Shown here piece after piece: positions 8,680 to 21,581 of a stretch of DNA of 38,264 bases (the first letter of the stretch is position 1; each line of letters opens with the position of its first letter). The translations under genes were made by a program, and so were the position numbers. The notes below the pieces were generated by a model. That model worked only from the letters and a program-made list of their open reading frames with translations, did no database searches and was not told the DNA's origin. This stretch comes from Methanobrevibacter olleyae (GTDB lineage: Archaea > Methanobacteriota > Methanobacteria > Methanobacteriales > Methanobacteriaceae), in NCBI RefSeq assembly GCF_900114585.1, contig NZ_FOTL01000022.1:1-38264 (forward strand), written 5' to 3'.

Positions 8680-8709
8680 AGTAATAATTAAATTTAAATA
8701 AGTATTACT
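8680..8709 (+). promoter_or_regulatory. NikR-like operator straddling a TATA box
   Basis: AGTAATA and TATTACT form an inverted repeat separated by exactly 16 bases. Trimmed to 6-mers it reads GTAATA-N16-TATTAC, the half-site spacing of the enterobacterial NikR operator (GTATGA-N16-TCATAC). The TATA-like TTTAAATA at 8693-8700 sits inside the spacer, so a bound protein would block TBP. The same arrangement is at 12614-12643 before the paralogous gene. The bound regulator is inferred, not shown. Confidence 0.65.
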
Positions 8710-8890: not shown

Positions 8891-8905
8891 GGAGGTTAAA
8901 TTATT
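8891..8905 (+). promoter_or_regulatory. Strong ribosome site GGAGGT followed by ATT start codon
   Basis: GGAGGT at 8891-8896 is followed by six bases and then ATT (8903-8905). The first standard in-frame start, TTG at 8921, is 24 bases away, too far for this site. A TTG at 8904 is in another frame and hits a stop after eight codons. The paralogue at 12720-12734 shows the same GGAGGT, six bases, ATT. Confidence 0.65.
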
Positions 8906-11900
8906 GAAAAACAAGTTCTTTTGCTTATAGCTCTTATGGCATGTTTAATATGTGCTATTAATGGAGTTTCAGCAGAAAATCTTGATGGAATTGATGATTC
9001 TAATCTTAGTATAGGTTCAACTTATATTAATGAATTTTCAACTGTTGAAAATAGTGATAATTCAGAATCATCTTTTAGTGTAAATAAAATGGAGCTATCT
9101 AGTTATAATAATATTTTAAGTGATGATTCTGTAGATATAAAAGCATCTAATAATAAAAATAGTATTAAAGATTCTGGATCTTCTAATGTTTCTGTTAATG
9201 TAAAAGTTAATTATGAATACCCTTCTGATAGTAGTCAAGTTGTACCTGATTTTTATGTAGTTTCTAATGGAAATTATCTTAATTTTACAAAAGCATATGA
9301 CTTTAATAAGAAAGCTTATGTCCTTAATATAAATGGCCCTTTAGAAGATTCTTATAATATCACTGCTTTAACTTCTGGTTACATAGATCAATCTAAAGTA
9401 ATTAGTGGTTCTTTAATAAGTGAATTAGTTACATTTGATTTAAAAGCTACTGCTGCTTATAAACTTGGTAAAGATGTAACTGCAGCTGCTGATAAAGCAT
9501 TAAATTTTAAAGATGCTGATGATATTCTTGTTGTAACTACAGCAGGTGTAGCTAAATTAAATGGTAAAAGCAGTGAAGAAGCTATTGAAGGGATTCTTAA
9601 TTATGGAAACATAATAGATTATACCGATATTTTAATGTTACGCCAATCTGCCTTAGATCCTATTGATTTTGCATTTATTATTAAAAAAGGAAATCAATTA
9701 AAAGCAGTTATTTTTGAAAATGGTTCCACAAAACAATCATATTTAGGAACTATTTCTGAAAATATGACTAGGAAAGAATGGAATAATTATTATAATGCTA
9801 TTAAAGGAGTTAACGCTTGGTCTTTTGCAAGTTTAGCTAATGGCTGGGTTGCTGGAGTATCAAGAGAAGTACTTCAAGAAGGTGCATTCCATGGACACAT
9901 ATGTGAAGGTACTTTAGGAGGATATAGTATTGTACAAGCTTTATTAAAATACTATCCCCCTGTTAAAGAAACCCAAACTGAAGGAGTAGGTTCTCCTGGG
10001 GATGTAACTTCTTATAAAATTCTTGGTGTTCCTGGTGGATCTGATGATGATGCAGCAATCTTCTTTTTAGATGCTACTATTGGTAAAACTGGTTATGTTG
10101 GAGTAGATACTACTGCAACTGGTGCAACTGAGAATATGATTGGATTTATCAGATGGTATGCTCGTAATAACACTGGTGATTTAATCATCATGTCCTTAAA
10201 TTCCACTAATGTTAAAAAAATCTTTACTAAAGAAATTGGCATTAATCCTGATGATGGAAGCTTAGAAGAGTTGAAATACTGTTCTTGGTGGATTAATAAA
10301 ATCAATAATGACCCAGGATGCTTAGTTGACTTTTTATATGAGTTTACTGCTTTAAATGCTGATCAATATTATTATTTAATGGGGACAAGTACTGATGTAA
10401 ATGTTGCAGAACACTCTGTTCAAGCAATTGATGCACATGGTTTAGATATGGAATATATCTTGTCTTTAAACCTTCCAAAGGCTACAAGATCTAATATTGA
10501 AACTATAAAAGCTACACTAACTGATGATCAAATGAAACAAATTGGTATAAATGCTGCTAATATTGGCAAAAGTTTATTTAAAGAAGAGCTAGGCATTGAT
10601 ATTGATAGAGATGCTGTTGACTTTGCAGTATTTACATCTGCTGGTTATGTATATTTAGATGGCCAAGAAACTGTTAAAGTTCGTGATGGTCTTTATGAAT
10701 CTTTAGGTACTAGTTTATACAGTAAAAATATGTTACAATACCATCAAGCTCTTTGGAAACCCTTATGGTTTGCATTTATTTTACGTCATCCTGATACTAA
10801 AGAAGTTCATGCAGCTTATTTAAGATATAATTCTGATGGTACTTTCTTTATAGGTGATCTTGAAGGGGATAAAGTAATAGATATTGGTATCAATACTTTA
10901 AATGATTCTGCAAAATTAAGAAAAATTGAAAAAACTTTTGCACCTGATGGAAATTGGTTTAGTGTACAAACCATTGCAAATGCATGGAGATCTCATCCAG
11001 TATTTGAACAAATATTGTCTTTCTTATATCATAACCATGTATGTCCAGGTGTACAACCAGGATTCTTTATAACTGATCATATTGAAAGTAATTATCCATT
11101 AGGTGAAAATGAATCATATACTTATATTGCTTCTACTACTTTCTGTAAAGATGACAGTATGACTTATTTATTAGGTATTTCTCCAGGTATGGGCACTTTT
11201 CTCGTTAAAAAATTACCTAAAAATGAAACTGTTTCTGAATATGTTGATGGTGGAACATATCAAGGTGTTCTTGTTGTATGGGATGATAATCTTAAAGTAG
11301 GTAAAGCTACTATTTTGAGTTTCAAATGGGGAAATATTGATACAAGTATGTATGGTACTTCTGAAGCAAAACGTGCTACTCAAATTGAAGCTTATATTGA
11401 TTTATATAATGGTGTAAATAATCCTAATATTAAAGCAAGTCCTGTTGTTTCTACTGATTGTGAAAAATGGATTACTGAAGAACAATTTAATATGTTAAAG
11501 ACAGGGGTTGGTGATGAAAATGTAATTAGATACATTCAAGGTCTTGATAATGTAACTAAAGAAGATTTATTAAAAGCTATGGAAAACAACACTAATATTG
11601 AAAATAGTTCTAATAGTGATTCTAAGAGCAAGGGTACTAGTACTAATAACAATTCCAATTTTAATAGTAATTCTAATACCAACTCTAATAGTAATTCCAA
11701 TAGTAATTCTAATACCAACTCTAATAGTAATTCCAATAGTAATTCTAATACCAATTCTAATAGTAATTCTAATGGTGTTGTATCTACTCCAAGTCATAAA
11801 CCTTCTCATTATACAAGTGTAGGAACTTTTGGAGCTGTAGCTACTGCTTCTCCTAATGAAGATGGCTTATCTGAAGATACAAATCCAGACAATCCTAGTG

Positions 11901-12031
11901 ATGCAAGTTCTTATGAAGTTTCTAAAACTTCAGCTACTAAGTCTGCTGATTCTAATGCTTTAATATATGCTATTATTGGTGTTTTAGCAATTGGTATTTT
12001 ACTTGGATTAGGTTACATCAGACGTAAATAA
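8903..12031 (+). CDS. Surface-anchored protein with two FmdE-like metal-binding domains (first paralogue)
   Basis: The product is 1042 residues counted from ATT. A signal peptide (EKQ, then a hydrophobic core, ending GVSA) exports it. A Ser/Asn-rich stretch and a beta-rich domain follow, then two copies of a module ending in an FmdE-like motif: H330-G-H332-I-C334-E-G and H710-N-H712-V-C714-P-G. FmdE proteins (PF02663) hold metal through such His/Cys residues; despite the name, no formylmethanofuran dehydrogenase gene is near. An Asn/Ser repeat (about 910-955) acts as a stalk and a C-terminal helix ending in RRK anchors it. The role is inferred from its context with CbiM and ExbB/DUF2149 genes: capture of nickel or a related metal at the cell surface. 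Regulation is probably through the operator at 8680. The start choice is discussed in the findings. Confidence 0.75.
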   Translation: MEKQVLLLIALMACLICAINGVSAENLDGIDDSNLSIGSTYINEFSTVENSDNSESSFSVNKMELSSYNNILSDDSVDIKASNNKNSIKDSGSSNVSVNVKVNYEYPSDSSQVVPDFYVVSNGNYLNFTKAYDFNKKAYVLNINGPLEDSYNITALTSGYIDQSKVISGSLISELVTFDLKATAAYKLGKDVTAAADKALNFKDADDILVVTTAGVAKLNGKSSEEAIEGILNYGNIIDYTDILMLRQSALDPIDFAFIIKKGNQLKAVIFENGSTKQSYLGTISENMTRKEWNNYYNAIKGVNAWSFASLANGWVAGVSREVLQEGAFHGHICEGTLGGYSIVQALLKYYPPVKETQTEGVGSPGDVTSYKILGVPGGSDDDAAIFFLDATIGKTGYVGVDTTATGATENMIGFIRWYARNNTGDLIIMSLNSTNVKKIFTKEIGINPDDGSLEELKYCSWWINKINNDPGCLVDFLYEFTALNADQYYYLMGTSTDVNVAEHSVQAIDAHGLDMEYILSLNLPKATRSNIETIKATLTDDQMKQIGINAANIGKSLFKEELGIDIDRDAVDFAVFTSAGYVYLDGQETVKVRDGLYESLGTSLYSKNMLQYHQALWKPLWFAFILRHPDTKEVHAAYLRYNSDGTFFIGDLEGDKVIDIGINTLNDSAKLRKIEKTFAPDGNWFSVQTIANAWRSHPVFEQILSFLYHNHVCPGVQPGFFITDHIESNYPLGENESYTYIASTTFCKDDSMTYLLGISPGMGTFLVKKLPKNETVSEYVDGGTYQGVLVVWDDNLKVGKATILSFKWGNIDTSMYGTSEAKRATQIEAYIDLYNGVNNPNIKASPVVSTDCEKWITEEQFNMLKTGVGDENVIRYIQGLDNVTKEDLLKAMENNTNIENSSNSDSKSKGTSTNNNSNFNSNSNTNSNSNSNSNSNTNSNSNSNSNSNTNSNSNSNGVVSTPSHKPSHYTSVGTFGAVATASPNEDGLSEDTNPDNPSDASSYEVSKTSATKSADSNALIYAIIGVLAIGILLGLGYIRRK
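11669..11776 (+). repeat. 36-base coding tandem repeat (Asn/Ser stalk)
   Basis: Three copies of a 36-base unit (AATTCTAATACCAACTCTAA...) encode alternating Asn-Ser and Asn-Thr residues. The third copy has drifted. Open frames on the other strand and in frame 2 across this stretch are by-products of the repeat. Confidence 0.85.
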
Positions 12032-12050
12032 GAAAAATAAGGTTTTATAA

Positions 12051-12078
12051 GATAAATAACTCATTTTGAGTTATTATC
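12051..12078 (+). terminator. Hairpin with T-rich tail after the first FmdE-like gene
   Basis: AATAACTCA and TGAGTTATT pair as a 9-bp stem with a TTT loop, extended by GATA/TATC on the outside, followed by TTTTTAATTTTTT. The same hairpin with a 4-base loop follows the second paralogue. The conserved stem suggests a functional terminator or 3' stability element. Confidence 0.7.
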
Positions 12079-12613
12079 TTTTTAATTTTTTACTTATGCT
12101 TTTTAAGGGAATTAATTTAATTTTAAGTTTTTAAAAGTAATTTACACTTTGTTGAAATCTTTTTTCACTTGAAATTGCAGATCGAATAAAATTTTTAAAT
12201 TACTCTAAATTGGATATAAAGCTTTTAAAATGCTTTAAGTTTAGTTACACTTGAAATAATACTTAAAGGATAAAAATAAGAAATAAAAAAACTAAATTCA
12301 AATGTTTAATCTAAAAATCCATAGATCAATTTAATTAGTTAGAAAATAAGGATTTCAACAAAACCTAATATTATTTTTTGCTTAACATCGTTATAGTAAT
12401 ACTTTTTTAATTTTTTTAAAAGTATTTTTCCTTTCTTAATTCTTGTTTTTTTTTAATTTTTTTTCTTTTTTGTCTTATTATTTTAGTTAACTATCTTATT
12501 TTTCAAAAATAATCTCCTTTTCTCGATATTAATTTTTTTTATTACTAATTTCTAATTTATTTATTATTTTTTAATAAGTTTTTTATTACTTTTTATACTT
12601 TTTTATCGATTTT
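12079..12613. other. Noncoding spacer with promoter region of the second paralogue
   Basis: No gene is visible. TTACACTTGAAAT at 12245-12257 matches the 13-mer at 4211 and, inverted, at 5531; a partial copy is at 12166-12175. The 12381-12403 element and the TATTACT half-sites at 12540-12546 and 12584-12590 match the layout upstream of the first paralogue. Confidence 0.55.
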
Positions 12614-12643
12614 AGTAATAAATAGCTTTATATAAGTATTACT
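12614..12643 (+). promoter_or_regulatory. NikR-like operator straddling a TATA box (second copy)
   Basis: AGTAATA (12614-12620), 16 bases, TATTACT (12637-12643). The spacer differs in sequence from the first copy but again contains a TATA box (CTTTATATA, 12626-12634). Conservation of half-sites and spacing with a changed spacer is what selection on a dimeric operator would leave. Confidence 0.65.
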
Positions 12644-12719
12644 ATAAATTTGTTTTAGATATTCATTTTTTTAAACTTAATGGATTGTTAATTAAATGGA
12701 ATATCATTAAAATTTTTGA

Positions 12720-12734
12720 GGAGGTAAAAATATT
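12720..12734 (+). promoter_or_regulatory. GGAGGT ribosome site followed by ATT start codon (second paralogue)
   Basis: GGAGGT (12720-12725), six bases, ATT (12732-12734), then AAA-AAA-CAG. The alignment with 8891-8905 and the codons that follow needs no gap. The next ATG (12744) is 18 bases from the ribosome site and would remove the Lys-Lys start of the signal peptide. Confidence 0.65.
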
Positions 12735-15700
12735 AAAAAACAGATGATTTTACTTATAACTCTTGTTACATTTCTAATGCTTGTTATAGGTGGAGTTTCT
12801 GCGGAAAATGTCGATGTTATGGATACTTCTAGTTTAAATGAAGTTTCTCTAGCTAATGTTAATGAAATTTCTGACACTGGAAGTACTGATATTCAATCTT
12901 ATTCTTCTGATGATGGAAATGGACTTGCTGTATCTGATTCTGTTGAAGATATTGATGAAGATAAAGGGGATATATCTGATTCAAAAAATACTCTCAAAGA
13001 ATCTGGTTCTGAAGATTCAAGATCTATTGATGTAAAAGTAAATTATGAATATTCAGCAGATGCTAATAAAATCAGTCCTGATTTTTATATAGTTTCTGCA
13101 GATGGAAAGTATCTTAACTTTACTAAAAAATTTGACTTTAATTCAAAAAAATGGACTTTAAACTTAGAAGGTACCTTAGAGGGGGATTGTAATATAACTA
13201 CCATGTCTGCAGGTTATATTACTCAATCTAAAATAGTTAGTGGTGCTAGTTTAAGTGATTTAGTTTTATTTGATTTAAAAGCTACTGAAGCTTATAAATT
13301 AGGGCGGGCTGTTTCTACATCTGCTGATAAAATTTTAGACTTTGCTAGTGCAGATGATATACTTGTAGTAACTACTGCCGGTGTTGCAAAGTTAAATGGA
13401 AAAACTAGTGAAGATGGAATGGAAGCTATTTTAAATTATGATAATTCAATAGCTTACACTAATGTATTAATGTTACGTCAAAGTGCAGTTGATCCTATAG
13501 ATTTTGCATTCATTATTAAAAAAGGAAATCAATTAAAAGCTGTTGTATTCCAAAATGCTTCTACAAGTCCTGTTTATAAAGGAACTATTTCTGAAAACAT
13601 GACTAAAAAAGAATGGAATACTTATTATAATGCTGTATTTGGAGAAAATGCTTGGGCTTTCGCAAGTTTAGCTAATGGTTGGGCTGCTGGTATCTCAAGA
13701 GAGATACTTCAAGAAGCTGCTTTCCATGGCCACATATGTGAGGGTACTTTAGGTGGATATAGTATTATCCAAGCATTATTAAAATACTATCCTCCAGAAC
13801 AAGAAACTAATCCTGGTGGAATAGGTTCTCCTGCAGATATAACTGCTTATAAAGTCCTTGGTGTTCCTGGAGGATCTGATGATGATGCAGCTCTATTCTT
13901 CTTAGATGATACTATTGGTAAAACTGGATATGTAGGTATGAATACTACCAATACCGGAGCTACTGAAAATATGCTTGGTTTCATTAAATGGAATAGTCAA
14001 ACTAAATCTGGTGATTTAATTATTATGACATTTAATTCATCAGATGTTAAAAAACTTTTCACTAAAGAAACCGGCATTAATCCTGATGCTGGAAGTTTAG
14101 AAGAGTTAAAATACAATTCCTGGTGGATTAAGCAAATTAATACTAATCCTGAAAAATTAGTTAATTTCTTATATGAATTCACTGGATTAAACCAAGAACA
14201 ATACAATTATTTAATGGGAACTACTGATAACGTTACCTACGATGGAGAACCATTTGATTATGGTATGGATGGTCATGGTTTAGATTTAAACTACATTTTA
14301 TCTTTAAATCTCCCTCAAGCTACAAGAGCTAATGTTGATAATAATCTAGGTCATTTATCTGATGCTCAATTAAAACAAATTGGTATTGACGCTGCTGATC
14401 AAGCTAAACTAATCTTCATGGAAGAATTAGGTGTTGATATTGATAGAGATGATGTAGATTTCTTAGCTTTAACAGATGCAAGTTATGCTTTCTTAAATGG
14501 TCAAGAAACAGTTGTTGTTCTTGATGGTCTTAACGAAGCTTTAGGAGCTACTTTATATAGTCAAACTTTGTTAAACCTTCACCAAGCAGTATGGAAACCA
14601 TTATGGTTTGCATTTGCTCTACGTTACCCTGACTCTAACTTAGTTAATATGGTCTATTTAAGATATAATTCTGCTACTAACGACTTCTTTGTAGGTGAAC
14701 TTGAGGGTAATAGGGTAGTGGATATTGGATTCAATACATTAAATGATTCAGCTAAATTAAAAAAGATTACACAAACATTTGTACCTGATGGAAACTGGTT
14801 TAATATTCAAAGTATTATTAATGCATGGAATGAACATCCATTATTTGATCAAATGTCTACATTCTTATACCATGCTCATGTATGTCCAGGTGTACAACCG
14901 GGCTTCTTCATAACTGATTATATTCAAAATGAATATCCATTAGGGGAAAATGAATCTTATACTTATATAGCTTCTAGTATCTATTGTAAAGATGACAGTC
15001 TAACCTATTTATTAGATTTATCTCCAGGTTTAGGTAATTACTATGTTCAAAAATTACCAAAAAATGAGACTGCTTCTGAATATATAGATGATGGAACTCA
15101 AGAAGGTATAATCATTGTATGGGATGACAATCTTAAAGTAGGTAGAGCAGCTATTGTAAGTTTCAAATGGGCAACTATTGACACTAGTATGTATGGTACT
15201 TCTGAAGGAAAGCGTGCAGCTCAAATTAAAGCTTATATTGATATGTATGCAAATAATGAAAATCCTAATATTAAAGCACTTCCAGTTGTATCAACTGACT
15301 GTGAAAAATGGATTACCGAAGAACAATTTAAGATGCTAAAACAGGGTGCTGGTGATGATTTTAATGTTATCACTTACTTAAAAAGCCTTGATAATCTAAC
15401 TAAAGAAGATTTATTAAAAGCTATGGAAAATAACACTAATAGCAATTCTAATGCTAATAGTAATTCTAACAGTAATAGCAATTCTAACGATAATGCTCAT
15501 ACTAACAGTAATTCTAACAGTAATAGCAATTCTAACGATAATGCTAATACTAACAGTAATTCTAATAGCAATAGTAATATTAATACTAATACTAATCCAG
15601 AATCTAATAGTGCAATTTCTAATCAAAGTCATAAATCTTTATCTAGTAGCATTGGAACTTCTGGAGATATAGCTTCTTCTGCTCCTAGTGTAGATACTGC

Positions 15701-15860
15701 ATATGAAGATGGAGATACAAATCCAAGTGATGCAAGTTCTTACGAAGTATCTAAGTCTCCTGTTACTAAATCTGCTGATTTCAATGCTTTAGCATATGCT
15801 CTTATTGGTGTTTTAGCAATTGGTATCTTACTTGGATTAGGTTACGTCAGACATAAATAA
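12732..15860 (+). CDS. Surface-anchored protein with two FmdE-like metal-binding domains (second paralogue)
   Basis: This is a tandem duplicate of the preceding gene, with the same length (1042 residues from ATT). The signal peptide begins KKQ, has a long hydrophobic core and ends GVSA. The N-terminal 140 residues have diverged most. The two FmdE-like modules keep H332-G-H334-I-C336 and H714-A-H716-V-C718, and the Asp/Glu-rich GGSDDDAA segment is also conserved. An Asn/Ser stalk and a C-terminal anchor helix follow. It has its own operator/TATA unit and its own 3' hairpin, so it can be expressed separately, but transcription may continue into the downstream transport genes. The second copy may differ in affinity or bind a different metal. 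No catalytic activity is claimed. Confidence 0.75.
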   Translation: MKKQMILLITLVTFLMLVIGGVSAENVDVMDTSSLNEVSLANVNEISDTGSTDIQSYSSDDGNGLAVSDSVEDIDEDKGDISDSKNTLKESGSEDSRSIDVKVNYEYSADANKISPDFYIVSADGKYLNFTKKFDFNSKKWTLNLEGTLEGDCNITTMSAGYITQSKIVSGASLSDLVLFDLKATEAYKLGRAVSTSADKILDFASADDILVVTTAGVAKLNGKTSEDGMEAILNYDNSIAYTNVLMLRQSAVDPIDFAFIIKKGNQLKAVVFQNASTSPVYKGTISENMTKKEWNTYYNAVFGENAWAFASLANGWAAGISREILQEAAFHGHICEGTLGGYSIIQALLKYYPPEQETNPGGIGSPADITAYKVLGVPGGSDDDAALFFLDDTIGKTGYVGMNTTNTGATENMLGFIKWNSQTKSGDLIIMTFNSSDVKKLFTKETGINPDAGSLEELKYNSWWIKQINTNPEKLVNFLYEFTGLNQEQYNYLMGTTDNVTYDGEPFDYGMDGHGLDLNYILSLNLPQATRANVDNNLGHLSDAQLKQIGIDAADQAKLIFMEELGVDIDRDDVDFLALTDASYAFLNGQETVVVLDGLNEALGATLYSQTLLNLHQAVWKPLWFAFALRYPDSNLVNMVYLRYNSATNDFFVGELEGNRVVDIGFNTLNDSAKLKKITQTFVPDGNWFNIQSIINAWNEHPLFDQMSTFLYHAHVCPGVQPGFFITDYIQNEYPLGENESYTYIASSIYCKDDSLTYLLDLSPGLGNYYVQKLPKNETASEYIDDGTQEGIIIVWDDNLKVGRAAIVSFKWATIDTSMYGTSEGKRAAQIKAYIDMYANNENPNIKALPVVSTDCEKWITEEQFKMLKQGAGDDFNVITYLKSLDNLTKEDLLKAMENNTNSNSNANSNSNSNSNSNDNAHTNSNSNSNSNSNDNANTNSNSNSNSNINTNTNPESNSAISNQSHKSLSSSIGTSGDIASSAPSVDTAYEDGDTNPSDASSYEVSKSPVTKSADFNALAYALIGVLAIGILLGLGYVRHK
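15462..15575 (+). repeat. 48-base coding tandem repeat (Asn/Ser stalk)
   Basis: A 48-base unit beginning AATTCTAACAGTAATAGC is present twice with part of a third copy. It encodes Asn/Ser with occasional Asp, Ala and His. The unit differs from the 36-base unit of the first paralogue, so the two stalks expanded independently. Confidence 0.85.
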
Positions 15861-15879
15861 GAAAAATAAGATTTTATAA

Positions 15880-15910
15880 GATAAATAACTCATTTTTGAG
15901 TTATTATCTT
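15880..15910 (+). terminator. Hairpin with T-rich tail after the second FmdE-like gene
   Basis: The AATAACTCA/TGAGTTATT stem is the same as at 12051, with a loop of four T, followed by TTTTTAATTTTTT. The 3' flanks of the paralogues are nearly identical for about 70 bases past the stop codon. Confidence 0.7.
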
Positions 15911-16046
15911 TTTAATTTTTTACTTATACTTTTTAAGGGACTTATAATTTTTAAGGAACTTATAATTTTTAAGGAAATTAAATTAATTTTAAGTTTTTAA
16001 AAGTAATTTAGTTTAAAGGGAATTTGATAGCTTTCAAAGTTTTTAA

Positions 16047-16073
16047 GGAGGTTAATTAATTAGATTTAATTAA
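16047..16073 (+). other. Orphan GGAGGT with four-codon ATT frame
   Basis: A strong GGAGGT (16047-16052) is followed by six bases and ATT-AGA-TTT-AAT-TAA, copying the start layout of the two large genes but ending at once. It may be a relic of a third copy or a leader peptide. It lies about 78 bases upstream of the next gene. Confidence 0.3.
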
Positions 16074-16129
16074 ATAATGCTTTTAATTGAATGTAATTAA
16101 TTAAACTTTATAATTATTGTGGTGATTTT

Positions 16130-16771
16130 TTGAATAAATATAAATTTTTAGCCTTATTAATTTCTGTAATTTTTATTTTTTCAGTTGTTTCAACTGCTAT
16201 TTCAGCACATCCGGGGCATGGTGGTGAATATGCAGAAGAAGTAACACCTGGTGATGTAAATTCCAATTCTCATGCTTCTAGTTCTGAGGGTTCTAGTTCT
16301 CATGCTTCTAGTTCTGGTTCTTCCTCTTCTGGCGGTTCTGGTTCTGGCGGTTCTTCTTCTCATGCTTCTAGTTCTGGTTCTTCCTCTTCTGGCGGTTCTA
16401 GTTCTGGGGGTTCTGGTTCTCATGCTTCTAGTTCTGGTGGTTCTAGTTCTGGGGGTTCTGGTTCTCATGCTTCTAGTTCTGGTGGTTCTTCTTCTGGTGG
16501 CTCTAGTAGTTCTACCAATTCTAAATCTTCTGGTGGTTCTAGTTCCAATATTCCATCTGATTCTTTAGGAGATAATTCTCAAATTGAACAAAATTCATCT
16601 GAAGAAGAAATGAATGAGTCTAATGCTAATTCAACTGAATTTAATGAAGTTATTGAAGATACAAATAAAGAAAATGATTTATTTACATTAACTAACATAA
16701 CTTTATTGATTTGTATGTTATTATGCGGATTCTTTGGAGTAATTATCATATCAAAATTATTTTCTAAATAA
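16130..16771 (+). CDS. Secreted, membrane-anchored His/Ser/Gly-rich protein (possible metal chelator)
   Basis: This 213-residue protein has no recognisable family. A signal peptide (NKYKF, then a hydrophobic core to AISA) is followed at once by H-P-G-H-G-G. About 110 residues of Ser/Gly repeats come next, with five S-H-A-S-S units, then an acidic segment and a C-terminal membrane helix. The seven histidines outside the membrane and the next-door CbiM gene suggest a role in holding metal at the surface; this is inference. The start TTG at 16130 has GGTGAT three bases before it, the usual spacing here. The Ser codons are mostly TCT/AGT in tandem units, so long frames on the other strand are artefacts. 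Confidence 0.65.
   Translation: MNKYKFLALLISVIFIFSVVSTAISAHPGHGGEYAEEVTPGDVNSNSHASSSEGSSSHASSSGSSSSGGSGSGGSSSHASSSGSSSSGGSSSGGSGSHASSSGGSSSGGSGSHASSSGGSSSGGSSSSTNSKSSGGSSSNIPSDSLGDNSQIEQNSSEEEMNESNANSTEFNEVIEDTNKENDLFTLTNITLLICMLLCGFFGVIIISKLFSK
16270..16505 (+). repeat. Coding tandem repeats (Ser/Gly/His)
   Basis: Five copies of CATGCTTCTAGTTCT alternate with GGTGGTTCT- and GGCGGTTCT-type units, giving SHASSSG and SSGGS repeats. Spacing is irregular, so this is not a CRISPR-like array. Confidence 0.8.
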
Positions 16772-16782
16772 TGGTGGATTTT

Positions 16783-17406
16783 ATGCATATTCCTGATGGT
16801 CTTATTCCAATGGATCAAGCTATAATATACTGGATTATTACACTTATTGTTTTAGCAATTTTCTTTATGAGAATTTCAAAAAAGGTTAATATGGAGGAAA
16901 GATTAGTCTTAACTGCTGTTTTAACTGCAGCTACAGCTGTAACAACTGCTGTTTCTATCCCTTCTCCCTTTGGAATACCTATGCATTTCTTTCTGATTCC
17001 TTTAGTTGTTATTATTTTAGGTCCTTTAAGTGGAACATTAGTTTGTTTTTTAGCTTTACTTAGCCAAGCTATTTTTTTAGGTATGGGGGGAATAACAACT
17101 TTAGGGGCAAATGTTTTAGTTATTGGAGTTTTTTTAAGTTTAGCAAGTTCAGTGGTATATGATTTATTTAAAAATATTAATGGAAGAGTTGCAATATTTA
17201 TTGCTACTTTATTCGGTATTTTAACAGCTACTGTTGTTCAAATAGTTATTTTATTATTAACTCAAACTACAAGTTTAGAGCTTCTTTTAGCTAGTTTATT
17301 ACCTTTTTATTTAGTTGTAGCATTTATTGAAGCTTTTATTAATGTTATTATTTTAGAATTAATATTTAATATTCGTCCAGATATTGCAGATATAGAAAAG
17401 ATTTGA
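16783..17406 (+). CDS. CbiM/NikM-type S component for nickel/cobalt uptake
   Basis: This membrane protein of the CbiM family (PF01891) begins MHIPDGLIP and has about six hydrophobic segments. In the NikM structure the metal is held by the amino group of Met1, by His2 and by a histidine near position 67; here His2 and His68 (in IPMHFF) are present. An ATG 12 bases upstream lies inside the ribosome site (GGTGGAT), and using it would bury His2, so 16783 is the right start (207 residues). CbiM normally works with CbiN, CbiQ and the ATPase CbiO. None of the latter two is nearby; instead an ExbB-type channel and DUF2149 protein follow. Which of the two metals it carries is not settled by sequence. 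Confidence 0.85.
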   Translation: MHIPDGLIPMDQAIIYWIITLIVLAIFFMRISKKVNMEERLVLTAVLTAATAVTTAVSIPSPFGIPMHFFLIPLVVIILGPLSGTLVCFLALLSQAIFLGMGGITTLGANVLVIGVFLSLASSVVYDLFKNINGRVAIFIATLFGILTATVVQIVILLLTQTTSLELLLASLLPFYLVVAFIEAFINVIILELIFNIRPDIADIEKI

Positions 17407-17464
17407 TTTATGATTCTTTAATTTATTTGTTTAATTAATTTTTATGTTTAAGGAGGTTTTAATT

Positions 17465-17953
17465 TTGAAAAAAATAATTTATTGTATTTTAATCATATTC
17501 ATTTTTCTTTTAACATTGTCTTCTGTTAGTGCACATGGTGCTGATATTACTGATGATACAATGATAATAGCAAATGAGTCTAATGGTGTTTTAGCAAAAA
17601 GTGTTGTAGATGATTTAGGTCTTAACATAACAGTTTATAAGTTTAAATCTGATGGAGATGTTGAACATCAATTAGAACATGCTTTATCTAATCCTAATAA
17701 AAGGATTTTAGCTATTGCATATCAAGATACTGTTGAAAATTATTTAAATAATCATTCTGAATTAAAAAACAGAGTTTTAATTTCTAATGATGATAGTAGT
17801 TCTCTTAGTGATTCAGCAAAGAAATTAGTTGAAATTGATATAGACTCAACTGATAGCAGTACTAACTTTATTACTCCATTGATCGTTGGTTTAGTTATTG
17901 GTTTATTAGTTGGAGTAGTTGTTGGCTTTGTGATTTTAAAAAATAAAAAATAA
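17465..17953 (+). CDS. Small protein with a membrane helix at each end (CbiN-like layout), function unknown
   Basis: The 162-residue protein has an N-terminal signal or membrane helix ending SSVSA, then H-G-A-D, about 95 extracytoplasmic residues, and a Gly/Val-rich C-terminal membrane helix ending KNKK. Two helices flanking an outer loop is the plan of CbiN/NikN, the usual partner of CbiM, but the loop is longer and no sequence match is evident. If cleaved after SA, the mature protein would begin with His. The start is the TTG at 17465, seven bases after GGAGGT (17452-17457). An ATG at 17444 lies before the ribosome site, and translating from it would merely encode that site. It follows CbiM by 58 bases. 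Confidence 0.6.
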   Translation: MKKIIYCILIIFIFLLTLSSVSAHGADITDDTMIIANESNGVLAKSVVDDLGLNITVYKFKSDGDVEHQLEHALSNPNKRILAIAYQDTVENYLNNHSELKNRVLISNDDSSSLSDSAKKLVEIDIDSTDSSTNFITPLIVGLVIGLLVGVVVGFVILKNKK

Positions 17954-18001
17954 TTCTTAATTTCATATCATATTATTTTAATAAGTAATTGTGGTGATAT
18001 T

Positions 18002-18682
18002 ATGGCATTTAGTTTATTATGGTCTTTAGGACTTATAATTTCTATAGTGATTTTTGCTATTGCCTTCGGTTTAATTCTTAGTTTGAATAATTTCTCTGAG
18101 AAAGATTTGGCAAAATTTTCTATTATTTCATTTATAAGTACCTTTATACTAATCTATTTTATTAATTTATTTAAGATTCAATTGAATTTAGCTATTGGGC
18201 ATTATAATTATCTATTATTGTTTTTAATAGCATTTTTATTGATTTTAAGTGGATATTTAATTAATAAAGATAAAGATATTAAGAAAAGTTTCAAATCAAT
18301 TTTAATCTTATCTTTTATTTGTTTTATTATAATGGCATTTATGTGTATTATATCTAAACAAGCATTATTTGGTTTAAATTCTTTAGAAATAAGTTTATTA
18401 ACTTCAATTTCATTTCTTTCACTATTGATTATATTGTGTTTTGTTTTTAAAAAGATTAATTTGAATATTTCATATAAAGAATTTGGGAGTTTATACTATA
18501 TTTTAGGAATCTATTCTTTGATAGTTTCATTATTTATACCAAATATAATATCTTTAGATTTAGATAAAATAAGTCCAATTAATATAGTTTCTATTGAATC
18601 TATACTTTTAACCATTATATTATTAGTAATAGTGATAGTTTTAGGTTTGTTTTATTATAAAAAGAATTCTATCTTTAGATAA
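18002..18682 (+). CDS. Six- to seven-helix membrane protein, possibly DUF2162 transporter
   Basis: The 226-residue, almost wholly hydrophobic protein has about six to seven membrane segments and short loops. Its size and position beside ExbB and DUF2149 genes fit the archaeal DUF2162 'predicted transporter' family, which I recall from similar methanogen clusters; no diagnostic motif is visible, so the family call is tentative. The start ATG has GGTGAT-ATT before it. It may be the permease or an accessory subunit of the metal-uptake system. Its 3' end, including the stop codon, is inside a 30-base tandem duplication. Confidence 0.5.
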   Translation: MAFSLLWSLGLIISIVIFAIAFGLILSLNNFSEKDLAKFSIISFISTFILIYFINLFKIQLNLAIGHYNYLLLFLIAFLLILSGYLINKDKDIKKSFKSILILSFICFIIMAFMCIISKQALFGLNSLEISLLTSISFLSLLIILCFVFKKINLNISYKEFGSLYYILGIYSLIVSLFIPNIISLDLDKISPINIVSIESILLTIILLVIVIVLGLFYYKKNSIFR

Positions 18683-18714
18683 TTTTATAAAAAGAATTCT
18701 ATCTTTAGATAATT
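18655..18714 (+). repeat. 30-base tandem duplication over a gene end
   Basis: Bases 18655-18684 and 18685-18714 are identical (TTATAAAAAGAATTCTATCT...). The first copy codes for the last residues and stop of the upstream membrane protein, and the second is noncoding. Confidence 0.9.
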
Positions 18715-18774
18715 TATTATTATTGTGATTAAATGAAATGTTTTTAAATTTATTAAATTTTTGTGGTGATTTAT

Positions 18775-19416
18775 GTGGTAAGTATACCTGGAAGTGAGTT
18801 ATTAACTGCAGCTTTAAATGTAGTTTCTCAAAGTTTACAGATTCCTGTAATAATTTTCTTACTTATATTTGCAGTTTTTGCAGTTTTTGCTTTTGGAGGT
18901 CTTATTTCAGATTATAATAATCGGAAAAAGTTAACTAGGGATTATAAAGAAAACTTAGTCTATTCTTTAGTTAATGCAAGTTCTGTTGATGAACTTAAAA
19001 AAATTGTTAATAAATCTGAGATTTTTGAAAGTCAAAAAGATGTCTTATTGAAAATTATTAATGCTCATTCTTTCTCTTCAGACTCTCGTGATGCATGGGC
19101 TTTAAATTTAATTGAGGAAGAAGAAGTTTCTATGGCAAAGTCCCTTGAAAAAATTGATATCTTAACTCGTATTGGCCCAACTCTTGGTTTAATGGGTACT
19201 TTAATACCTATGGGGCCTGGTCTTGCTGCTTTAGGTAGTGGAGATGTTTCTACTTTAGCAAGTGCAATTATCATTGCTTTTGATACTACAGTTGTAGGTA
19301 TTGGTTCTGGTGCAGTAGCTTATGTTATTTCAAAAGTTAGGCGTAGATGGTACGAAGAGTATTCTTCTAATCTCCAGTTATTAGTCAATGCTGTTTTGGA
19401 GAATTTAAAGAACTAA
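18775..19416 (+). CDS. MotA/TolQ/ExbB-type proton channel protein
   Basis: This is a member of the family that uses proton flow to drive movement in a partner protein (ExbB-ExbD, TolQ-TolR, MotA-MotB). There is a membrane helix near residues 10-40 and a charged cytoplasmic stretch. Two more helices follow, with the family signature GPTLGLMGTLIPMGPGLAAL and then the Thr/Gly-rich AFDTTVVGIGSG. The partner is the next gene, DUF2149, which has an ExbD-like single-helix plan. The start is uncertain: GTG at 18775 has GGTGAT four bases upstream, while GTG at 18763 overlaps that site. An out-of-frame ATG at 18773 also overlaps. In bacteria such pairs energise outer-membrane transport; this archaeon should have no outer membrane. 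Confidence 0.85.
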   Translation: MVSIPGSELLTAALNVVSQSLQIPVIIFLLIFAVFAVFAFGGLISDYNNRKKLTRDYKENLVYSLVNASSVDELKKIVNKSEIFESQKDVLLKIINAHSFSSDSRDAWALNLIEEEEVSMAKSLEKIDILTRIGPTLGLMGTLIPMGPGLAALGSGDVSTLASAIIIAFDTTVVGIGSGAVAYVISKVRRRWYEEYSSNLQLLVNAVLENLKN

Positions 19417-19497
19417 TTAAATTTAAACAGTTTTAAATTAAAAAAAATTTTCTTATTTCTTTAAAATCTCAAATTAAGTTTAACTTAAGGTGATTTC

Positions 19498-19836
19498 ATG
19501 ATTAAACGTAGAGAAGGAAAGTTTCTAAATCAAGGTGAAGAGGATCCAATGGCTGGAACTTCTAATTTAGTTGATGCAATGTTAGTTATTGCAGTTGGAT
19601 TATTAGTTTTTTTGGTTATTTCATGGAATATGCAAAGCATTATTTTTAATGAAAACATGGATGAACAACAAAAACAGAAAGTTAAAGATGCATTAAAAGA
19701 AATTTCTCAAATTGATCAAGGTAAAGAGCTAGAAGATACTCCTGATTTAAGTAAATCTTCAGGTAGTGGATACACAGAGATGGGGAAAGTTTATAAAGAT
19801 TCTTCGACAGGAAAATTAATCATGGTTGAAGGTTAA
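19498..19836 (+). CDS. DUF2149 protein (ExbD-like partner of the channel protein)
   Basis: The 112-residue protein matches the DUF2149 pattern as I know it. It starts with EEDPMAGTSNLVDAMLVIAV and one membrane helix (about residues 24-45), then a charged linker, and ends with a conserved segment (GSGYTEMGKVYKDSSTGKL). DUF2149 genes are regularly found next to ExbB-type genes, and the Asp in the helix (D26 region) would be the proton-carrying residue by analogy with ExbD. The start ATG follows GGTGAT-TTC. It is the last gene of the + strand cluster and is followed by a strong hairpin. Confidence 0.85.
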   Translation: MIKRREGKFLNQGEEDPMAGTSNLVDAMLVIAVGLLVFLVISWNMQSIIFNENMDEQQKQKVKDALKEISQIDQGKELEDTPDLSKSSGSGYTEMGKVYKDSSTGKLIMVEG

Positions 19837-19967: not shown

Positions 19968-20282
19968 TTATTCGGCATCTTCATCCATAGTTTCAAGTAA
20001 AAAACTTACAGGACGAAAACCATCATTACAAGATATCATAGCTGATTTTTTATTTTTCATCCATCCATCATAAAAATCTTCAGCACCATTTGCTAAAGCC
20101 ATAACAAATGGAGATAGATTTTCCCAGGCACTACTACATAAATTTTTAGGTTTTTCCCATCCGTTAGCTATAAAAACATCTCCAAGCTCTACATCACACT
20201 CATGTTCCAATGGATTTTCATACTTTTCAATCAAATCATCATGTCTAACTTTTTTCATAACTGTAATTTTTACTTTCTTCAT
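19968..20282 (-). CDS. TIGR04076 family protein
   Basis: The 104-residue protein has conserved cysteines near residues 29, 48 and 70 and the C-terminal SCNDGFRPVSF motif typical of TIGR04076. The family is short, of unknown function, and found in archaea and anaerobic bacteria. No signal peptide or membrane helix is present. It lies opposite the metal-uptake cluster and divergent from mtd, with no evident operon partner. A link to redox chemistry through the cysteines is possible but unsupported. Confidence 0.7.
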   Translation of the reverse strand: MKKVKITVMKKVRHDDLIEKYENPLEHECDVELGDVFIANGWEKPKNLCSSAWENLSPFVMALANGAEDFYDGWMKNKKSAMISCNDGFRPVSFLLETMDEDAE

Positions 20283-20750: not shown

Positions 20751-21581
20751 ATGGTAGTTAAAATTGGTATAATAAAAAGTGGTAATATTGGTACCTCACC
20801 AGTATTAGATTTATTATTAGATGAAAGAGCAGACAGACCAAACATCGATGTAAGAGTATTTGGATCTGGAGCAAAAATGAACCCTGAACAAGTTGAAGAT
20901 GTTGTACCTAAAGTAGATCAATTCGACCCAGATTTCTGTATTTTCATTAGCCCAAACCCAGGAGCACCTGGTCCAGATAAAGCAAGAGAATTATTATCTG
21001 AAAAAGATTGCCCTGCTATTATAATTGGTGATGCACCTGGTAAAGGTAAAAAGGATGAAATGGATGAACAAGGTTTAGGTTACATCATTGTAATGTCCGA
21101 CCCAATGATTGGTGCAAAAAGAGAATGGTTAGACCCTACTGAAATGGCTATCTTTAATGCGGACATCTTAAAAGTATTAGCAGAAACTGGCGCTTTAAGA
21201 TTAATACAAAAAACCATTGATGGTATAATTGAAGCTGCTGACGAAGGTAAAGAAATTGAATTACCTAAACTCATAATTACTGCTGAAAAAGCTGTAGATG
21301 CTGCTGAATTCCAAAATCCATATGCAAAAGCAAAAGCTATTGCTGCTTACGAAATGGCTGGTGCTGTAGCTAACTTAGACATGAAAGGTTGTTTCATGAC
21401 CAAAGGTTACGAAAACTTCATCCCATTAGTTGCTGCTGCTCACGAAATGGCTGCATATGCTGCTAAATTAGCACAAGAAGCAAGAGAAATTGAAAAATCT
21501 AATGACACTGTTTTAAGAACCCCTCACATGAAAGAAGGTAACATTGGTTGCAAATTTGATTTAATCAGCAAACCAGAATAA
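20751..21581 (+). CDS. mtd: F420-dependent methylenetetrahydromethanopterin dehydrogenase
   Basis: This central methanogenesis enzyme (EC 1.5.98.1) transfers hydride between F420 and methylene/methenyl-H4MPT in the CO2 reduction pathway. The product is 276 residues, the normal size, starting MVVKIGIIKSGNIGTSPVLD. Recognisable segments include CIFISPNPGAPGPDKAREL, GDAPGKGKKDEMDEQG and the C-terminal HMKEGNIGCKFDL. The ATG at 20751 has GTGAT three bases upstream; the open frame extends 62 codons further, but that part is hydrophobic AT-rich noise. TATA-like sequence at 20709-20719 fits a very short leader. Frequent codons ending in C mark a highly expressed gene compared with its neighbours. 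Confidence 0.97.
   Translation: MVVKIGIIKSGNIGTSPVLDLLLDERADRPNIDVRVFGSGAKMNPEQVEDVVPKVDQFDPDFCIFISPNPGAPGPDKARELLSEKDCPAIIIGDAPGKGKKDEMDEQGLGYIIVMSDPMIGAKREWLDPTEMAIFNADILKVLAETGALRLIQKTIDGIIEAADEGKEIELPKLIITAEKAVDAAEFQNPYAKAKAIAAYEMAGAVANLDMKGCFMTKGYENFIPLVAAAHEMAAYAAKLAQEAREIEKSNDTVLRTPHMKEGNIGCKFDLISKPE

Follow-up and report, generated by a model that had tools for sequence, protein, structure and literature searches.

A candidate NikR-controlled nickel-scavenging locus with an orphan CbiM and tagged surface proteins in Methanobacteriales

Introduction

How might a methanogen gather nickel when the metal is scarce, and what could an ExbB-type motor contribute in a cell without an outer membrane? 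Both questions are raised by eight + strand genes in a 38,264-nucleotide stretch of Methanobrevibacter olleyae DNA (contig NZ_FOTL01000022.1; the whole stretch is the window below), which encode two FmdE-like surface proteins (FmdE1 and FmdE2), a secreted protein named here for its motif HPGHG, a CbiM-type S component, a small membrane protein (P5), and a trio of DUF2162, an ExbB-family protein and DUF2149. Nickel is central to methanogenesis, through F430 and the NiFe hydrogenases. The nickel importer of Methanothermobacter has been described as not yet identified (PMC3087415), and the function of many archaeal CobN homologues has been called unclear (PMC12583661). Judging from sequence, we propose, with a probability of roughly 0.6, that the locus is a NikR-controlled surface nickel-scavenging system for nickel starvation, related to HmuSTUV of Bacteroidota. 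The block is likely an undescribed system of this kind that lacks an ATP-driven pump of its own.

Results

The block is far beyond chance, because its gene set recurs in many genera. Matches to a P5 profile turn up in 59 of 150 Methanobacteriales genomes and in 16 of 19 genera, a few of them being marginal (E near 1e-3). Among 32 full neighbourhoods the orphan CbiM is present every time, the HPGHG protein in 27 and an FmdE protein in 24, and the conserved core consists of an orphan CbiM with P5 after it, usually accompanied by the HPGHG protein and tandem-FmdE surface proteins. ExbB and DUF2162 occur in 15 neighbourhoods each and DUF2149 in 14, counts that are lower bounds, since in two genomes (G068 and G057) the trio lies just beyond the fetched stretch, behind CobN; absence of any gene may also reflect the limits of a simple gene caller. 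An earlier note on this DNA, made from the letters of the window, had looked to conservation of the neighbourhood in related species, and the block is indeed conserved across the order, with CbiQ (the survey covered CbiQ; CbiO had no model of its own) in only one of the 32 neighbourhoods, 4.3 kb from the P5 gene of genome G024. Some genomes (loci L053 and L119) hold FmdE, HPGHG protein, CbiM, P5, CobN and the trio in a single cluster. A contig binned as Clostridia (L058) carries a Methanosphaera-like FmdE-CbiM-P5-trio locus, probably through a binning error. An energy-coupling factor (ECF) S/T/A cassette made of recurrent neighbour genes of about 192, 235 and 520 residues was considered and rejected, as their sequences and Pfam matches identify them as HisB (by eye), a ModE-like HTH-TOBE protein and a polysaccharide flippase.

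What controls the block? The dyad GTAATA-N16-TATTAC, which encloses a TATA-like box, occurs exactly in 17 of 40 regions upstream of FmdE genes, and most of the others are 1-3 bases off. Its 6-N16-6 geometry is that of the E. coli NikR operator. A position weight matrix built from other species only scores the two window sites at 28.9 and 34.0 bits, against a maximum of 18.4 in Markov-1 backgrounds (3 x 225 kb). Ten perfect dyads are found in this genome versus three for the reversed control. Eight of them comprise one each at FmdE1, at FmdE2, at an MCR operon, at hmdC and at a CooC/MinD-like ATPase whose gene follows NikD/E-like genes, two in the hypA region (of which the more distant could be that of a different gene), and one at hmd, where the distance of about 470 bases makes the assignment weaker. 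The beta subunit of the MCR operon is confirmed by NCBIfam, and the operon would be of the mrt type because its layout has no C gene. The other two dyads precede a surface protein adjoining a CobN-trio locus and an MtrH-like gene (named by eye). Elsewhere, three genomes (G022, G050 and G056) have one perfect dyad each, at FmdE, G009 has two before a nikA homologue and one before a CDF exporter, and G020 has one before a canonical cbiM; G042 has no perfect dyad, so that the excess is not seen in every genome. NikR is encoded in 17 of 17 genomes searched, and the M. olleyae copy passes the NCBIfam NikR models. We infer that the dyads are NikR operators and that the block is probably switched on by nickel shortage. 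The locus had been assigned to nickel or cobalt uptake; metal uptake with an orphan CbiM stands, and the NikR-type operators favour nickel over cobalt, nickel being the likely metal because the dyads precede both FmdE genes as well as nickel-linked genes.

The two FmdE proteins are surface-anchored, as had been read from the letters: each has a Pfam FmdE match, a signal peptide and a C-terminal transmembrane helix. In a solved member of the FmdE family, mixed Zn/Ni is held by His15, His17, Cys19 and Cys55 (PMC2954224), and the same His-x-His-x-Cys plus distal Cys pattern is present in the second half of the window proteins, where H710, H712, C714 and C748 (FmdE2 numbering) are kept and invariant; the distal Cys is missing from the first half. 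The transfer of these ligands rests on the motif and on that structure, because an alignment against PDB sequences found no FmdE chain.

The ligand set Met1/His2/His68 ascribed to the window CbiM proves right once the start is placed at ATG 16783, which gives the N-terminus MHIPDG, and each of 11 orthologues keeps it unchanged. Among solved structures, chains 4m58 and 5x3x come closest; the former we take to be a nickel-specific NikM with an N-terminal Met-His site. P5-linked CbiMs form one clade (49 rows, support 100/99) apart from those that sit with CbiN and CbiQ; the tree is midpoint-rooted and has some long branches, which limits what can be said of deeper splits. The genome encodes three CbiM and three CbiQ proteins, and outside the block there are two cbiM-cbiN-cbiQ loci plus the third CbiQ; the window CbiM adjoins neither partner. 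A cbiQO operon elsewhere, co-expressed with this cbiM, had been named as an observation that would speak against an ATPase-free system: cbiQ loci do exist in the genome, but each comes with a CbiM of its own. Orphan CbiM of a second type, with neither P5 nor CbiQ, occurs in three g3 genomes (L153-L155), in one of them followed by an 80-residue His-rich small protein.

Two proteins flank the orphan CbiM. P5 had been called CbiN-shaped, and its layout of a domain between two transmembrane helices agrees with this, but the domain is predicted to have a Rossmann-like alpha/beta fold (structural matches are weak) and a CbiN search gave no match; its orthologues share an invariant post-signal His-Gly and HxxEH. 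The secreted protein described as His-rich does have a signal peptide but is Ser/Gly-rich, its conserved feature being the predicted mature N-terminus HPGHG, a motif kept across genera.

On what, then, does the trio act? The earlier note offered two options: that ExbB-DUF2149 replaces the ATPase of CbiM, or that it acts on the surface proteins. DUF2149 has five copies in the genome: one in the window, one next to a surface CobN (contig C21), and three next to adhesin or beta-helix proteins (contigs C12, C4 and C27), so that four of the five adjoin CobN or adhesin-like surface proteins rather than CbiM. Methanothermobacter-like genomes have a single copy, beside CobN and FmdE, with CbiM-P5 elsewhere. 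Given this distribution and the presence of DUF2149 in only 14 of the 32 neighbourhoods (a lower bound), the first option is not supported as stated, and the second fits better; we consider it more likely that the trio acts on surface proteins, because elsewhere it accompanies CobN or adhesin-like proteins and because FmdE and CobN share a rare C-terminal tag. Among solved chains the window ExbB matches MotA at 1e-3. DUF2149 has an Asp26 that is invariant in 8 of 8 sequences and no detectable sequence similarity to solved ExbD, TolR or MotB, and the DUF2162 model is of low confidence (predicted local distance difference test score 65) with no meaningful structural match. A second, truncated ExbB copy (L023 2782-3447) lies near the adhesin-trio locus of contig C12.

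The tag consists of (S/A/K)YE(V/I/L), about 12-15 residues, one transmembrane helix, and G(Y/F) with basic residues. At E<=1e-3 a profile built from 13 sequences finds only four proteins in this genome, namely FmdE1, FmdE2, CobN and a 748-residue protein, and nearly all tagged proteins looked at in G036 and G037 are CobN or FmdE. Across 96 genomes tag and DUF2149 are both present in 80, DUF2149 only in 9, the tag only in 2 and neither in 5 (Fisher p 6e-4, uncorrected for kinship). In 17 genomes a tag lies within 5 kb of 19 of 38 DUF2149 genes versus 0.8 expected, a count biased upwards because the profile was seeded from trio neighbours; the bias does not touch tags on non-neighbouring CobN and FmdE proteins. 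The tag may be a docking element, a sorting signal being the obvious alternative. Eight surface CobN/FmdE proteins of G037 (L139-L146) have divergent bodies and near-identical tags, which suggests gene conversion or strong common constraint.

Published data from Methanothermobacter marburgensis bear on the trio. Proteomics reported in PMC12350162 found CobN1, NikR1 and a 'Transporter', MTBMA_c10530, raised under nickel limitation. MTBMA_c10530 is probably the trio's ExbB, an assignment by position that follows from the gene order beside the CobN-like MTBMA_c10550-10570 (listed in PMC3087415) and from the layout in G036, where a CobN split into several open reading frames is followed by DUF2162, ExbB and DUF2149.

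All eight genes are present at or very near the places first reported, so that the block is real, and Pfam agrees with the family assignments (Table 1): E-values are 6e-18 for FmdE1, 3e-18 for FmdE2, 2e-40 for CbiM, 3e-19 for DUF2162, 4e-10 for MotA/ExbB and 1e-21 for DUF2149. Neither CbiQ nor CbiO is among the block genes or their Pfam matches, as had been noticed. Both FmdE genes probably start at ATT (8903 and 12732), right after the Shine-Dalgarno-like AGGAGG and GGAGG, respectively; the first standard starts are TTG 8921 and ATG 12744. The ATT starts agree with the MRKQV start of one orthologue. An Rfam scan of the window found no RNA element. Just downstream of the block lies mtd (20754-21581), a gene that M. 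marburgensis transcribes more strongly when nickel is limiting (PMC3087415), and between them, on the - strand, a 104-residue Cys-containing protein (19968-20282).

Table 1. Features of the block and its putative operators (window positions).
Feature	Position	Strand	Remarks
Putative NikR-type operator	8681..8708	+	GTAATA-N16-TATTAC centred on TATA-like box TTTAAATA; upstream of FmdE1; exact match; 28.9 bits
FmdE1 surface protein	8903..12031	+	Signal peptide, two FmdE-like halves (HGHIC, HNHVC), Asn/Ser-rich stalk, YEVSK tag, C-terminal transmembrane helix
Putative NikR-type operator	12615..12642	+	Box TTTATATA; upstream of FmdE2; exact match; 34.0 bits
FmdE2	12732..15860	+	Architecture as FmdE1; 65% identity to FmdE1
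HPGHG protein	16130..16771	+	Signal peptide, predicted mature N-terminus HPGHG, Ser/Gly-rich linker, C-terminal transmembrane helix
Orphan CbiM (S component)	16783..17406	+	Pfam; Met1, His2, His68
P5	17444..17953	+	Transmembrane helix, Rossmann-like domain, transmembrane helix; invariant post-signal His-Gly and HxxEH
DUF2162	18002..18682	+	Pfam; about 7 predicted transmembrane helices; lacks the CPCC motif seen in CobN-linked copies
ExbB/MotA-family proton channel subunit	18763..19416	+	Pfam
DUF2149	19498..19836	+	Single transmembrane helix, invariant Asp (NLVDAMLV); putative ExbD/HmuV-like partner

Discussion

We propose that, when nickel is scarce, NikR would leave the operators before FmdE1 and FmdE2, and the tandem-FmdE proteins would be displayed on the cell surface, where they may bind nickel or a nickel complex through their HxHxC..C sites. 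From there the metal would be relayed by way of the HPGHG protein and P5 to the orphan CbiM, which may bind it through Met1/His2/His68 and move it across the membrane with no dedicated CbiQO. The trio would use proton flow on tagged surface proteins, FmdE here and CobN elsewhere, to bring about metal release or handover, comparable to the part that HmuTUV may play towards HmuS in Bacteroidota. ATPase-free transport is plausible but unproven, the proton pair standing in for the ATPase of CbiM being its less likely version. Tentatively, and at well under even odds, we entertain a more specific form, in which an ExbB-DUF2149-DUF2162 proton machine acts on tagged metal-stripping surface proteins (FmdE, CobN) and frees complexed nickel for an ATPase-free CbiM-P5, all under NikR, in methanogens that have no outer membrane.

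Several points weigh against the nickel-scavenging proposal. The Methanothermobacter loci that were fetched have no N16 dyad, only GTATTAC/GTAATA half-sites at other spacing; many FmdE-CbiM loci have no trio next to them, and CbiM-P5 pairs that lack it are found in many neighbourhoods, Methanothermobacter included; and the adjacency of tag and DUF2149 carries the upward bias described above. Finally, the CbiQO of other operons could serve the window CbiM in trans, and co-expression with a canonical cbiM is plausible because a perfect operator precedes the latter in G020.

This last point leads to a rather improbable alternative, in which CbiM-P5 is a substitute S component borrowing the CbiQO of canonical nik/cbiMNQO operons, the surface proteins and the trio serving only to supply it. 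The two cbiM-cbiN-cbiQ loci, the NikR-type site in G020 and the CbiQ near P5 in G024 are consistent with borrowing; however, the canonical loci all come with a CbiM and a CbiN of their own, and the orphan CbiMs make up a distinct clade that is otherwise not found near CbiQ. That ExbB-DUF2149 drives CbiM directly in place of CbiQO we judge unlikely: the operon is tight here and in several genomes and CbiQO is absent nearby, but about half of the CbiM-P5 loci have no trio, and the trio sits mostly without CbiM, beside CobN or adhesin-like proteins.

Other alternatives concern the substrate. With low probability, it could be nickel in a tetrapyrrole or other organic complex, such as F430 debris, stripped by surface CobN and FmdE and imported by CbiM; the single clusters in L053 and L119 (FmdE, CobN, CbiM, P5 and trio) and the removal of heme iron by HmuS, a CobN homologue encoded with HmuTUV (PMC12583661), point this way, yet the window locus has no CobN, the CobN-trio of this genome lying on another contig (C21). 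Service to cobalt or zinc, with the dyads a coincidental feature of AT-rich promoters, appears very unlikely: CbiM families carry Ni or Co and FmdE domains bind zinc too (PMC2954224), but the dyads are distributed at nickel-linked genes, and no background reaches the scores of the window sites.

With its NikR-type operators, the conserved block of surface proteins, CbiM and ExbB offers a concrete candidate for a nickel importer. It also suggests a role for the archaeal CobN homologues and for DUF2149 and DUF2162, and one for ExbB-type motors where an outer membrane is lacking.

How does the locus compare with known systems? With the group I ECF transporters NikMNQO and CbiMNQO it shares a CbiM S component and its Met1/His2/His ligand set; it differs in having no CbiQ, CbiO or recognisable CbiN, in having P5 instead, and in the separate clade of its CbiM. 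Like ExbB-ExbD, TolQ-TolR and MotA-MotB, it combines an ExbB-family channel subunit with a small putative partner that has a single transmembrane helix and an Asp at its start, whereas DUF2149 is not detectably similar in sequence to the solved partners. In the response of M. marburgensis, CobN1, the probable trio ExbB and NikR1 are induced by low nickel; the main text of PMC12350162 does not describe FmdE-CbiM-P5 or a motor. A further parallel is HmuSTUV of Bacteroidota, in which the CobN homologue HmuS, which takes iron out of heme (PMC12583661), shares its operon with an uncharacterised membrane protein, ExbB and DUF2149 (PMC10434189). Methanogen CobN-DUF2162-ExbB-DUF2149 loci mirror this operon of a large membrane-anchored CobN-class protein, a polytopic membrane protein, an ExbB-like protein and DUF2149, whereas the window locus has FmdE in the place of CobN and no TonB receptor, and adds CbiM, P5 and nickel-type control.

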